Source: an uncultured Prevotella sp. (GTDB lineage: Bacteria; Bacteroidota; Bacteroidia; Bacteroidales; Bacteroidaceae). Taken from it: DNA of 23,041 bases. A model generated the notes under the pieces. That model saw only the letters and a program-made list of their open reading frames with translations. It did no database searches and was not told the DNA's origin. Positions 9,202 through 23,041 of this stretch are shown here, piece by piece; position 1 is the stretch's first letter, and each line of letters opens with the position of its first letter. The position numbers and the translations under genes were made by a program. The stretch lies in NCBI GenBank assembly GCA_934202525.1, contig CAKPYB010000044.1, positions 1 to 23,041 on the forward strand, in the 5' to 3' direction.

Positions 9202-10983
9202 TTATCGGCTCAGCCAAGCCTCCGGATTGAGTTTGGCAGTCTCCTTGCGAAGCTGGAACTGGAGGATGTTATCAGAGCCCACGGCACCAAGAGCCTGACG
9301 GGTACTTACCTTCTGACCCTTATGAACGCTGACCGATTTCAAATTACAGTAAACAGAGATGTAGGCACCATGACGGACCAGCACGTTCCACATGCCACCA
9401 TAACCGAAGACGGCACTCACCTCACCATCGTAGATGCTGCGAGCCACACAACCCGGCTTGCCCTGAATATTGATACCCTTATTGTCGAGCGTTACGCCCT
9501 TCAAGCCTTCTACATTATACTGACCGAAATGACTCACCACACGGTAACTGCCGCTGATAGGCATCGGCAACCGGCCACGGTTAGCCTCGAATCCACCGCT
9601 CAGCATGCGGTCTACCGAACTCAAGGTAGAAGCCTCCTGTGCCTCCTTCTTGGCAGCGGCAATCTCACGGGTACTGCGTTCCGCATCCATCTTCGCCTTC
9701 AACTCGGCAGCCTGTCTTTCAGCCTCCGCCTTTCTTGCAGCCTGTTCGGCAGCAGCCTCACGGGCAGCCTGCTCTGCAGCGGCACGCTTGGCAGCCTCGG
9801 CAGCAGCACGCGCCCTAGCCTGCGCTTTAGCCTTCGCCTTAGCCTCAGCCTGGGCAGCAGCCTCCTCCTGAGCCTTTCTTGCAGCCTCGGCAGCCTGTCT
9901 TGCCTCTTCAGCCGCCTTTCTGCGGGCAGCTTCGGCAGCAGCCTCACGCGCCTTGGCTTCGGCTATACGGCGGGCATTCTCCCTGGCAGCAGCCTCGGCA
10001 GCAGCTTTCTTGCGAGCCAGTTCCTCGGCACGTTTCTTGGCGGCAGCAGCGGCAGCGGCCTTCTTCTTAGCCTCGGCAGCAGCACGGGCACGAGCCTTGG
10101 CTACTTCCTGAGCAATCAAACGGTCAATCTGAGCGTTGATTGCCGCATCTTTCTGACGCTGGTCGGCGATGACAGCCTGAATGGTCTTCTGCTGTTTCTG
10201 CAGTCCCTGCACCATTTCCTGCTGCTGGGTCTGCTTGCCTTCCAATACCGTCTTCTCCTGCTTACCCTTATATAATAAGGTGTTCTTATGTCCCTTTACA
10301 TGCTGCAACTGCTGGTGCTTCTCGTTCACCTGCTTCTGCTTAGCCTTTACAGCCTCGCCCTGCACCTTCTGATAGGAAGAATACTGGCGGATGAAGGAAA
10401 GGCGGCGATACATCTGTGTCAGATTCTTGGCACTGAAGATGAACATCAGCTTGTCCTGAACCGTATGATGACGGCTCATATAGCGCATGGAACGGATATA
10501 CTTGTTCTTGCGGTCCTGCAACTGTTGCTGAAGCGTTTTCAACTGTGCCTGCAGAATGCCGATATTGCCGTCAATATGATGGATATCCTTCTGGATACCG
10601 TCAATCTTCTTCTGACGCTGGTCTATTTCTCCGTTCAGCGCCATCAGGTCTTCAAGACGTTTCTTCACATCCGCCTTATTTCTCTGCAAAGCCTGCTCCT
10701 GCTCTCTGATCTTCTTCCGGATAGAAGCGCGCTGTCCCTGCAAACCCCGGATAGAGGCATTGCTATAGGTTGCTGCCTTGCGTTCTGCTCTGGTTGGCGC
10801 AGCTGATTTGGATGTTTTTCTGGCCACATGACTTCTGCTGTTCGTCTTTCTGGCAGGAGTAGCAGCCTTCTTTTTCGCAGTTACGGCAGTCTTTCTCACC
10901 GGCTTCTTCTGGGCAGAATGCTTCTGCGCAAAAGGTGCGAGCGAGAAGGTGATTGCCATGATGAATAATAAGATTCGCTTCAT
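9202..10983 (-). CDS. EnvC-like murein hydrolase activator (coiled coil plus degenerate LytM/M23 domain)
   Basis: This 593-residue exported protein has a signal peptide (about 1-19, ending LAPFAQ), a basic Lys/Arg/Ala linker (20-75), a long coiled coil (about 76-290), and a very Ala/Lys/Arg/Glu-rich helix (about 290-450). A LytM-fold domain follows (about 469-593, from RLPMPISG to EAWLS). The zinc ligands of active M23 peptidases are gone: the HxGxD position reads NKGINI, the YxH loop reads YCNL, and the final HxH reads LQFQL. This is the state known for EnvC, which does not cut peptidoglycan but switches on amidases that split daughter cells. An amidase-activating role in the periplasm is therefore likely, though the partner is not in the window. 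It is the last gene of the dut-TPR-DUF4292 cluster, 50 bp behind its neighbour. Confidence 0.88.
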   Translation of the reverse strand: MKRILLFIMAITFSLAPFAQKHSAQKKPVRKTAVTAKKKAATPARKTNSRSHVARKTSKSAAPTRAERKAATYSNASIRGLQGQRASIRKKIREQEQALQRNKADVKKRLEDLMALNGEIDQRQKKIDGIQKDIHHIDGNIGILQAQLKTLQQQLQDRKNKYIRSMRYMSRHHTVQDKLMFIFSAKNLTQMYRRLSFIRQYSSYQKVQGEAVKAKQKQVNEKHQQLQHVKGHKNTLLYKGKQEKTVLEGKQTQQQEMVQGLQKQQKTIQAVIADQRQKDAAINAQIDRLIAQEVAKARARAAAEAKKKAAAAAAAKKRAEELARKKAAAEAAARENARRIAEAKAREAAAEAARRKAAEEARQAAEAARKAQEEAAAQAEAKAKAKAQARARAAAEAAKRAAAEQAAREAAAEQAARKAEAERQAAELKAKMDAERSTREIAAAKKEAQEASTLSSVDRMLSGGFEANRGRLPMPISGSYRVVSHFGQYNVEGLKGVTLDNKGINIQGKPGCVARSIYDGEVSAVFGYGGMWNVLVRHGAYISVYCNLKSVSVHKGQKVSTRQALGAVGSDNILQFQLRKETAKLNPEAWLSR

Positions 10984-14480: not shown

Positions 14481-15818
14481 ATGGAGTGGAAACAACTGAT
14501 ATCCAACAAGCGTTTCGGACAGGAGCATAAGCATGCCGAGCGCCATGATGATCGCTCTGAATTCAAGCGCGATTACGACCGTCTTATCTTTTCATCGGCA
14601 TTCCGCCGTTTGCAGAACAAGACGCAGGTTTTCCCTTTGCCGGGCAGCATCTTCGTTCACAACCGCCTCACCCACAGTCTGGAGGTGGCGAGTGTGGGCA
14701 TGTCGATAGGTAACGACATTTCACGACGTGTCATCCAGAAACGGCCAGAACTGAAGGAGACGCTCGTCGAGGAATTAGGAACCATCGTAAGTGCAGCCTG
14801 TCTGGCACATGATTTGGGCAATCCGCCTTTCGGTCATTCCGGCGAGAAAGCCATCCAGACTTTTTTCTCTGAAGGACCAGGTCAGAAGATAAAATCAATG
14901 GTTTCATCGGAGTTTTGGGATGATATTACGCATTTCGAAGGTAACGCAAATGCCTTCAGAATCCTGACCCACCGGTTCAAGGGGCGCCGTCAGGGAGGCT
15001 TCGTGATGACCTATTCCATGCTTGCTTCCATCGTGAAATACCCGTTTGCGAGCAGTCTTGCCGGGAATCACGGCAAATTCGGCTTCTTTGCTTCCGAAGC
15101 GGAATCTTATAGGAAAATTGCCGATGAATTGGGCATTTTTTGCAAGTCCGCACCAGGTGAGCCTCTCAAATACGCCCGCCATCCACTTGTATATATGGTA
15201 GAAGCTGCCGACGACATCTGCTACGAAATCATGGACATCGAAGACTCCCATAAGCTCAAGATTCTTTCCTTTGCCGAGACCGAGCACCTGCTGCTGAGTT
15301 TCTTTGATGAAGAAATCCAGCAGAAGATACGCCAGCGCATCATCGACGAAGAACTGACTGACGAAAACGAGAAAGTGGTTTACATGAGAGCCAGCGTTAT
15401 CGGCAAACTGGAGAACGAATGTGTGGCAGCCTTCCTGGCGCACGAGGAGGAAATCCTCGCCGGAACTTTCGAGGGCAGTCTCATCGACCATATTTCCGAG
15501 CGTCAGAAAAAGGCATACAAGGAATGTGAGAAGATCTCCTACTCAAAGATTTACCAAAGCAAGCCGGTACTCGACATAGAACTGTCGGGTTATCAAATCA
15601 TGGCAACTCTGATGGAGGTTTTCATCGAGGCAGCCGTCAACCCATCGCGCTTCTACTCCAAGCAGCTCCTGCGCCGGGTAAGCAGCCAGTATGATATAGA
15701 GAACGAGAATCTGGAGGAGCGCATCATGGCGGTAATTGATTATATCAGCGGCATGACCGACATCTATGCGCTCGACATCTATCAGAAGATCAACGGTATC
15801 AGTCTGCCTATTGTTTAA
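14481..15818 (+). CDS. dgt: Deoxyguanosinetriphosphate triphosphohydrolase-like protein (HD domain)
   Basis: This 445-residue HD-superfamily dNTPase cleaves dNTPs (classically dGTP) to the deoxynucleoside and triphosphate. The N-terminus shows the family segment RDYDRLIFSSAFRRLQNKTQ (30-49). Metal ligands follow: H65 in NRLTHSLEV, the H110-D111 pair in CLAHDLGNPPFGHSGEKA with H119, and the late Asp in VEAADDICYEIMD. The length is close to the approximately 440-residue type II Dgt-like proteins and shorter than E. coli Dgt (505), so the substrate may be broader than dGTP. It has its own strong promoter and is divergent from dut, suggesting coordinated dNTP control. It could also contribute to phage defence by nucleotide depletion, as described for some dGTPases; nothing in this sequence points specifically to that. 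Confidence 0.93.
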   Translation: MEWKQLISNKRFGQEHKHAERHDDRSEFKRDYDRLIFSSAFRRLQNKTQVFPLPGSIFVHNRLTHSLEVASVGMSIGNDISRRVIQKRPELKETLVEELGTIVSAACLAHDLGNPPFGHSGEKAIQTFFSEGPGQKIKSMVSSEFWDDITHFEGNANAFRILTHRFKGRRQGGFVMTYSMLASIVKYPFASSLAGNHGKFGFFASEAESYRKIADELGIFCKSAPGEPLKYARHPLVYMVEAADDICYEIMDIEDSHKLKILSFAETEHLLLSFFDEEIQQKIRQRIIDEELTDENEKVVYMRASVIGKLENECVAAFLAHEEEILAGTFEGSLIDHISERQKKAYKECEKISYSKIYQSKPVLDIELSGYQIMATLMEVFIEAAVNPSRFYSKQLLRRVSSQYDIENENLEERIMAVIDYISGMTDIYALDIYQKINGISLPIV

Positions 15819-21908: not shown

Positions 21909-22058
21909 ATGAAAAAGAAAGAATATAAAAAGCCAGAGATACAGGTGGTAAATATCACCTCTTGCACCCTCCTCGCAGCATCTACCCTATATCAAGGAAG
22001 AGCTGATAGCGGTAGTAGTCCAGCAAAAGATGATGATGACTGGTATTATGGTGAGTAA
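21909..22058 (+). CDS. 49-residue peptide of the MKK-x-Y-xxP / LLAAS type, function unknown
   Basis: An ATG preceded by AAAAGGAT (a good ribosome binding site) opens a 49-codon frame that begins MKKKEYKKPEIQVVNITSC, continues TLLAASTLYQ, and ends in an acidic DDDDWYYGE tail. It is too short for most gene finders. The pattern (basic start, Tyr-xx-Pro-Glu, a hydrophobic stretch, then a small-residue (L/M)LAxS site and a variable hydrophilic tail) matches many short Bacteroidales peptides I have seen annotated as hypothetical; I know no function for them. It has no real transmembrane segment. It starts 22 bp after the GLUG-protein stop in the same direction, so co-transcription is likely, and is followed by a hairpin. 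Confidence 0.65.
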   Translation: MKKKEYKKPEIQVVNITSCTLLAASTLYQGRADSGSSPAKDDDDWYYGE

Positions 22059-22089
22059 CAGTCATTATAACGCCTAACAGCATAATACA

Positions 22090-22128
22090 GAAAGAGGGTG
22101 TGTCATAAATACATGATTACCCTCTTTC
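22090..22128. terminator. Hairpin downstream of the small peptide gene
   Basis: GAAAGAGGGT (22090-22099) and ACCCTCTTTC (22119-22128) form a perfect 10-bp stem around a 19-nt loop that itself has a TCAT/ATGA pairing. No U-tract follows on the plus strand, so it is an atypical terminator. It may instead be a processed RNA 3' end or a remnant of a small inverted-repeat element. Confidence 0.55.
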
Positions 22129-22150
22129 ACCCGCACCTCACGGGAAACGA

Positions 22151-22195
22151 CAAGGGTCTATATGCCACGATGAAAAGGGGGCGTATAGACCCTTG
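22151..22195. repeat. Long inverted repeat (16-bp stem) in non-coding DNA
   Basis: CAAGGGTCTATA (22151-22162) is the exact reverse complement of TATAGACCCTTG (22184-22195). The pairing extends inward with one G-U and three more base pairs (to 22166 and 22180), leaving a 13-nt loop. No T run follows. It stands 23 bp after the preceding hairpin, giving tandem strong structures after the peptide gene. Confidence 0.65.
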
Positions 22196-22290
22196 ATTAT
22201 AGGATGATATTCGTAATCAACATCTCCGCTATTATATTTATTATGAATTGCTCAGATTCTTAATGATTTTCAAAGGGAGCTGTATCACAC

Positions 22291-22620
22291 TTCAGTCAAG
22301 CAACTCAAGTAGTTCAATCAAGCAACTCAAGTAGTTCAATCAAGCAACTCAAGTAGTTCAGTAAGACAATTCAAGTAGTTCAGTAAGACAATTCAAGTAG
22401 TTCAGTAAGCGAGTTCAGACGTCTCAGTTAGCTGATGCAGACGTCTCGATAAGCTTACAGATACGTCTCCGTTAGCTTACGCAGTCATATCAGTAACGCG
22501 ATACAGCCATATTCGTAACCCGATACAGTCATATTCGTAACCCGATGCTGCCATATTCGTAACCCGATGCTGCCATATTCGTAACCCGATGCTGCCATAT
22601 AAGTAACCTAGCGCAGCCCT
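22291..22620. repeat. Tandem array: 15 units of exactly 22 bp, drifting in sequence
   Basis: Units start every 22 bp from 22291 to 22599 with no indels. Units 1-3 share CAAGCAACTCAAGTAG (2 and 3 identical), and units 4-5 are identical (GTAAGACAATTCAAGTAG). Units 6-9 are transitional with ACGTCTC at the boundaries. Units 10-15 belong to an ATTCGTAACCCGAT family, with units 12, 13 and 14 identical. Because 22 is not a multiple of 3 and TAG recurs in the first units, stops fall in all frames and the array is non-coding. There is no alternation of constant repeat and unique spacer, so it is not CRISPR. An isolated ATATTCGTAA at 22207-22216 matches the distal family. Confidence 0.92.
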
Positions 22621-22653
22621 CATATGAACAAATTTTATGTAATTATCTATCAT

Positions 22654-22786
22654 CCATCACGATTTGCACCTCTAACGCCAATTAACATGTTAATATACAG
22701 ATACTTAAATAGCGTGATAGATACTTCAAAAACGGAAAAATCCATCACGCTATCCATCACGATTTGGGGTTATCCCTCACGATTTT
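22654..22786. repeat. CCATCACGATTTG repeat patch with an internal inverted repeat
   Basis: CCATCACGATTTG occurs at 22654-22666 and 22754-22766, with related copies at 22742-22750 (CCATCACGC) and 22774-22786 (CCCTCACGATTTT). TAGCGTGATAGAT (22710-22722) pairs with ATCCATCACGCTA (22740-22752) at 12 of 13 positions around a 17-nt loop, so one copy is inverted. It looks like clustered protein-binding sites or a decayed small repeat element. Confidence 0.7.
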
Positions 22787-22849
22787 CTCACTACACACTC
22801 TATCAGTTACAGATATTTTTGTTGACACTTACGATGGCAATCAGACACG

Positions 22850-22937
22850 GTTTCATGGAATGAAACATTTTGTTTCATACTATGAAACTGTTCGTTTCAA
22901 GCGGAGAAACACTTCGTTTCATCCTGTGAAACGAACC
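22850..22937. repeat. Four-unit palindrome array GTTTCA-N5-TGAAAC, 22-bp period
   Basis: Palindromes start at 22850, 22872, 22894 and 22916, exactly 22 bp apart, each 17 bp long with a 5-bp linker. The second, GTTTCATACTATGAAAC, is a perfect 8-1-8 inverted repeat. The first is 7-3-7, the fourth 6-5-6, and the third keeps only GTTTC/GAAAC. Centres vary while arms are conserved, the pattern expected of a dimeric regulator's operators or of selected RNA stems. The next bases (22938-22947, GATACGTCTC) repeat a 10-mer from the 15-unit array. Confidence 0.88.
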
Positions 22938-23041
22938 GATACGTCTCAAAGCTTTTGCCCTTACAGTGTAGTTTCCTATATTTAGTTTACTACCTAGAGT
23001 CTTATTCCTGGTGAAGGTTGACAATTAATAATCATTATTCC

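Follow-up and report, generated by a model that had tools for sequence, protein, structure and literature searches.

Plasmid iterons are direct repeats of about 22 bp that serve for side-by-side protein binding. Two further repeat systems resemble the element analyzed here. BrickBuilt, from Porphyromonas gingivalis, has been described as a MITE with 23-nt repeats, a leader and a tail, found at 19 loci, and the same account mentions 22-nt direct repeats noted earlier in P. gingivalis W83 (PMC4596501). REP/BIME elements are GTAG- and CGTC-tagged palindromes that, according to the cited paper, favour convergent genes and gene 3′ ends (PMC3733652). For 22-bp arrays in Prevotella or Segatella, the titles and abstracts surveyed contained no description.

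The DNA stretch analyzed here, hereafter the window, comprises 23,041 nucleotides from an uncultured Prevotella sp. As the protein encoded at positions 14481–15818, presumably a dGTPase, shares 98% identity with the corresponding protein of Segatella copri iA622, the window belongs to the S. copri complex; DNA identity to iA622 ranges from 87.5 to 94.3% in four aligned pieces. Neither a tRNA nor, at gathering scores, an Rfam match was found anywhere in the window. Its right end carries an array of 15 units of 22 bp (22291–22620), all in the same orientation and with zero indels, as the initial annotation had reported. Tandem Repeats Finder splits the array into three period-22 rows, and the autocorrelation of positions 22001–23041 has its top value at lag 22 (0.453), followed by lags 44, 66, 88 and 110. 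The local identities already noticed were likewise reproduced (units 2=3, 4=5 and 12=13=14), and so was the scant likeness of the two ends: unit 1 shares 9 of 22 positions with unit 15 and 8 of 22 with unit 12. No ORF of at least 60 aa crosses the array, which agrees with its description as non-coding, and a coding remnant was rejected as its origin. The feature is larger than 330 bp, since a conserved tail (about 22621–22810) and a second, palindromic 22-bp array (22849–22934) follow the 15 units (Table 1). This second array may be part of the element. Its GTTTCATNNNATGAAAC palindrome has no match in the readable part of genome G046; in that genome, the copy at 562k carries a TACGTC-type palindromic array at about the corresponding place.

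Table 1. Coordinates of the element and of the gene remnant on its left, in window positions.
Feature	Positions	Strand	Basis or remark
Last codons left of a PDDEXK_2 nuclease gene that the element truncates	22241–22282	−	Intact relatives continue at other loci
Left junction of the element	22283–22290	+	Beyond 22282, no further homology to other PDDEXK_2 gene ends
A block, units 1–5, CAACTCAAGTAG type	22291–22400	+	Units 2=3 and 4=5 identical
Core, units 6–9	22401–22488	+	Order kept in other copies; hidden two-fold symmetry strongest here
B block, units 10–15, GTAACCCGAT type	22489–22620	+	Symmetry lost
Tail with CATCACGATTT motifs	22621–22810 (right end approximate)	+	Follows the array, conserved, in copies at four other loci
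Second 22-bp array, palindromic GTTTCATNNNATGAAAC plus 5 bases	22849–22934	.	Motif unlike that of the main array

The window array is one copy of an intergenic repeat dispersed in the Segatella copri complex. The initial annotation had named the absence of similar arrays elsewhere as what would speak against it; such arrays were found in G001 (the genome of locus L001), in G002 (the genome of locus L019) and in G046, and in all three the series running from an A-type block through four fixed core units to a B-type block keeps its order unchanged. As the unit order is the same at other loci, the change of sequence family along the array is inherited and was not made at the window locus. Units 6–9, formerly read as local hybrids between the two families, are a fixed core, and their local hybrid origin was discarded. 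The readable part of G046 (2,307,499 bases, 69% of a contig of 3,325,514 bp) holds eight family loci: three strong copies were matched first, and a scan with clustering of 48 arrays gave five more, two of them distant (28k and 2084k). Three members of the 13-array cluster concerned (444012, 1281675 and 1485529) were excluded, their motifs being different. Few genomes of the wider genus carry the array: at least 3 of 200 after the matches had been read, and at least 2 of 398 in a separate scan, with no more than 3 or 2 candidates scored per genome. Two of the five genus matches, L084 and L085, were excluded because on reading they were not the window element; L085, from a genome of the wider genus, bears at about 1500–1600 an unrelated palindromic 22-bp array (GTGTCACGAACGTGGCAGGGCT).

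Between copies, block lengths vary by whole units. A simple similarity rule, which includes some flank as outermost unit, counts 1 to 5 units on the A side and 2 to 8 on the B side. Under the same count, the orthologous copies at G001 322k and G046 1281k have 13 and 10 units, and those at the YitT locus of G002 and at G046 587k have 9 and 15. Such changes by whole steps could be of use in strain typing.

Five copies have the tail in common, namely those of the window, of G046 at 562k, 587k and 2577k, and of contig MT837870, while the copies at G001 322k, G046 1281k and G046 382k end in a common AAACGGAAG-like stretch in its place. A leader of about 40 bp is common to G046 562k and 2577k only, and the left ends are unlike between most loci. 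To the right of the 2577k copy lies a 60-bp REP-like repeat (L101, about 10382–10450) that is matched dozens of times in G001 and G002. In the window, the nuclease gene of which the remnant is left, which we take to be Rpn-like, has intact PDDEXK_2 relatives at other loci that continue past the equivalent point. Genes of the PD-(D/E)XK/AAA type (PF08011/PF09820, PF13635, PF12784) lie within 2 kb of five of the eight G046 family loci, compared with 16.8% of 197 intergenic segments of at least 400 bp and with 13 of 48 when all G046 arrays are taken; as this gene set was picked once the neighbours of 562k, 587k, 2577k and 1281k (the latter via G001) were known, the tie between family loci and such genes is a lead only.

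The left neighbourhood contains two other small structures. Positions 22151–22195, behind the nuclease-gene remnant, form a hairpin with a 16-bp stem (DNA fold z −6.7); the motif is also present at many other loci of G001, G002 and G046, where it follows PDDEXK_2-like genes, and in G046 it adjoins Y1_Tnp genes. Positions 22091–22128 form a GAGGGTGTGTCATAA...CCCTCTT palindrome of a type found at many loci of S. copri genomes; both at the YitT locus and among CAGCTG-family loci, this type flanks arrays as well.

A phage or plasmid origin was rejected. In viral_contigs nothing matches the core pattern exactly, array plus tail match none of 72,556 plasmid records, and the sole match in a phage collection, GenBank record MT837870 (L159 1–257), looks bacterial. 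This record is filed as Bacteriophage sp. and resembles a chromosome of the S. copri complex; we take it for bacterial chromosome because the four ORFs put to Pfam matched a TonB receptor, an MFS protein, a thioredoxin-like protein and an MBOAT protein.

Dispersed copies with a common tail, lengths that change by whole units with locally identical units, and a nuclease gene interrupted by the window copy all speak for an element that is selfish or neutral, harbours a minisatellite and has no host function. It would be spread by a trans-acting transposase or by recombination, and its passenger array would grow by slippage or unequal exchange. BrickBuilt, with its 23-nt repeats, leader and tail at 19 loci, offers a precedent (PMC4596501). 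The ends of the copies fit this explanation less well: left ends differ at most loci, and in the four tailed copies taken for an inverted-repeat test (window, 562k, 587k and 2577k), the ends of which are approximate, the best left/right match was no better than in shuffles (p 0.16 to 0.85). We regard such an element as possible, with rather more doubt than belief.

The initial annotation had suggested that selection acts on spacing. Compared with the window's 132-bp core, ten other copies give uncut local alignments of 104–132 bp with 5–49 substitutions each (254 pairwise substitutions in total) and no gap, which favours the suggestion. When nine cores are compared in all 36 pairs, there are 863 substitutions and 20 single-base gaps, the gaps falling in 6 pairs with a net of 0 in each; trimming these cores to one length favours a net of 0, and they represent few independent changes. 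The five tails, in ten pairs, show 246 substitutions and 19 gaps. On minimum spanning trees there are 110 substitutions and 8 gaps for cores and 77 and 4 for tails, so that net register shifts amount to 0 per 110 substitutions in cores against 4 gaps per 77 in tails (p = 0.03), a contrast that is gone once cancelling gaps are counted (8 per 110 against 4 per 77). As far as the alignments go, there is moderate support for a constraint on the 22-bp step, which is kept while the bases drift; the earlier suggestion holds as regards the gap-free copies, and is only moderately backed by the contrast with the tails. If selection does hold the step and not the sequence, the arrays would constitute a natural experiment on binding-site geometry in an abundant human gut lineage.

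Beneath the unlike units lies a common skeleton. Among 131 units compared, 106 of them distinct, T2 is present in 103 of the distinct ones, T6 in 93, A8 in 89, C10 in 87, A13 in 85, C16 in 87 and A17 in 104; column 19 is unconstrained. The best self-complementary axis falls between columns 9 and 10, with p = 0.02 for all units, 0.001 for core units and 0.08 for A units, in tests that treat related units as independent. No self-complementary axis was found in B units, which make up about 40% of the units counted and have almost no symmetry: the mean number of pairs out of 11 is 5.6 in A units, 5.6 to 6.6 in core units and 3.3 in B units, compared with 2.8 after shuffling. The information profile alone gives no significant symmetry (p = 0.10), and the mixed consensus of the window array is no palindrome (p = 0.997). 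Covariation is no higher at the axis between columns 9 and 10 than at others. Consensus symmetry unaccompanied by covariation is more in keeping with protein sites than with RNA helices. The side-by-side protein binding suggested initially is therefore favoured in part, by the hidden two-fold symmetry of A and core units, and finds no such backing in B units. Slippage alone, as invoked for a selfish element, leaves the common symmetric skeleton across unlike units unexplained.

Arrays with a 22-bp step form a wider class. Intergenic segments from 80 Prevotellaceae loci contain a lag-22 array-like stretch in 20 of 354 cases, one further match having been excluded as a run of N (L002). At other lags, the segments with such a stretch number 21 for lag 7, 11 for lag 21, 13 for lag 44, 7 for lag 66 and 0 to 4 for the rest of lags 15–40. 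Twenty contigs of genomes listed as relatives, with kinship unstated, gave 1 in 95 (p = 0.09 against the 80 loci), and in E. coli K-12 none of 109 intergenic segments has a lag-22 stretch. In G046, lag 22 occurs in 39 of 914 intergenic segments of at least 80 bp and is the maximum over lags 8 to 99, with lags 44 (26), 21 (16) and 23 (12) as runners-up; five dinucleotide shuffles of these segments yielded no lag-22 stretch in any case. Tandem Repeats Finder, applied to noncoding DNA of the window and the 80 loci, gives 23 rows for period 22, fewer than the 28 rows each for periods 10 and 14.

Palindromy of 22-bp arrays is at most the property of a subset. In a strict circular palindrome test on arrays from the 80 loci, part of G046, G001, G002 and the window, 8 of 48 reached p ≤ 0.05 (combined p 0.055). 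Palindromic arrays with variable linkers occur in L072 (TACCAATGCTTGGTA) and L070 (TTGCACAAAGTGTGCAA). Palindromic and non-palindromic 22-bp blocks were read as joined in one run at 6 of 7 loci of the CAGCTG family of G046, the symmetry centres of which are spaced 22 bp and which has many matches in G001 and G002, and at 4 of 5 loci of the AGTCAGCAG family of that genome. A dispersed composite 22-bp family other than that of the window is seen at L134 13905–14062, where a ACAACAGCTGTTGT block adjoins a TTCCAACAACATATCC block; seven of its loci lie in readable G046, and G001 and G002 contain many matches to it. The recurrence of 22 bp in unrelated array families is, again, something that slippage alone leaves unexplained.

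The 22-bp arrays of G046 favour convergent gaps. Taking all such arrays of the genome, not the window family alone, and ORF calls in place of annotated genes, gaps of at least 200 bp are convergent in 16 of 37 cases where they hold an array and in 77 of 501 where they do not (odds ratio 4.2, p = 1e-4); the figures for divergent gaps are 7 of 37 and 141 of 501 (p = 0.26). A smaller count, now superseded, had given 9 arrays in convergent, 12 in tandem and 2 in divergent position, with 3 at edges. Both the array frequency (39 of 914) and the odds ratio make it a testable matter whether the arrays share a role in transcription or in the structure of the chromosome.

The same bias to convergent gaps, together with the strong palindromes of some other 22-bp arrays, might suggest a structured RNA or bidirectional terminator, the array being transcribed and its units forming hairpins that end convergent genes. 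The window array folds in an ordinary manner on both strands, with RNA z-scores of −1.1 and −1.0 and with 11 and 17 of 100 shuffles folding at least as well, and this, along with covariation not beyond other axes and the want of an Rfam match in the window at gathering scores, makes the explanation improbable. A known RNA family was rejected on the last of these grounds, and the repetitive RNA proposed by the initial annotation is not supported. An assembly artefact or chance periodicity, for which it may be said that short-read contigs can break or collapse in arrays and that contig MT837870 begins inside a B block, is already refuted for the element as a whole by the series repeated in G001, G002 and the 3,325,514-bp contig of G046 and by the five shuffles without a lag-22 stretch.

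The explanation that we favour, to which we give nearly even credence, is that of a dispersed BrickBuilt/REP-like repeat whose 22-bp lattice would serve the binding of a dimeric protein. As observed, a copy consists of 22-bp units in one order, with the A block first, the four core units next and the B block last, and in five copies the common tail comes after it. Judging from orthologous and paralogous copies, in the proposed mechanism these would reach new loci as blocks and later gain or lose whole units, so that neighbouring units become alike within a locus. With one skeleton beneath the unlike units, two-fold symmetric in A and core units as observed, each unit would be a putative site for a dimeric DNA-binding protein. 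Dimers would then occupy a single face of the DNA at intervals of two helical turns, building up a nucleoprotein stretch. The order of unlike units and the exact 22-bp step, both retained between loci, suggest, short of proof, a series of docking sites for a DNA-binding protein that acts as a pair. In the weakest step of the proposal, that stretch may separate or stop converging transcription or organize the chromosome, as has been proposed for REP elements; a role at converging genes is considered because the arrays of G046 favour convergent gaps. A broader conjecture, which we deem rather unlikely, is that Prevotellaceae chromosomes carry spacing-strict, sequence-relaxed intergenic arrays of two-fold symmetric sites with a 22-bp step, often adjoining a block that has this step but lacks the symmetry, and with a motif that differs per locus family. 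A dimeric protein present in abundance, or several co-evolving ones, would read geometry first and sequence second and would mark the meeting points of converging genes.

As for the known systems, plasmid iterons differ from the S. copri arrays in that the latter are chromosomal intergenic copies with no match among the 72,556 plasmid records. The element was filed under neither REP/BIME nor BrickBuilt because it lacks a defining feature of each, which is inverted pairs and a neighbouring RAYT-type gene for the former and terminal inverted repeats for the latter. As far as the consulted parts of the REP/BIME accounts go, a palindromic unit has 20–40 bp and units stand in inverted pairs, head-head or tail-tail; the S. 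copri array is a direct tandem lattice with one exact step, its symmetry being degenerate and absent in B units. In REP/BIME a GTAG or CGTC tag stands at one end of the palindrome; in the S. copri units GTAG occupies columns 19–22 in 20 of 131 and CGTC columns 20–1 in 24. A RAYT-type tyrosine transposase flanked by the repeat belongs to the REP/BIME description, and none was seen beside 22-bp arrays: Y1_Tnp matches number two in G046 and three in G002, with one below the cut-off in G001, and no 22-bp array stands in the five of these six loci that were inspected (3.2–3.3 kb; L262, L263, L265, L266 and L267). BrickBuilt, compared here by its published description, has a step of 23 instead of 22, and the unlike units in fixed order set the S. 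copri array apart from it; MITEs of its type are credited with bidirectional promoter activity and have terminal inverted repeats matching IS5-family elements, and no such repeats were found in the four tailed S. copri copies. By the same descriptions, the mosaic joining of blocks and the preference for convergent genes are shared with REP/BIME, whose short intergenic palindromes the A and core units recall, and the intergenic position, several loci per genome, imperfect tandem units without spacers and, in five copies, a flanking tail are shared with BrickBuilt.
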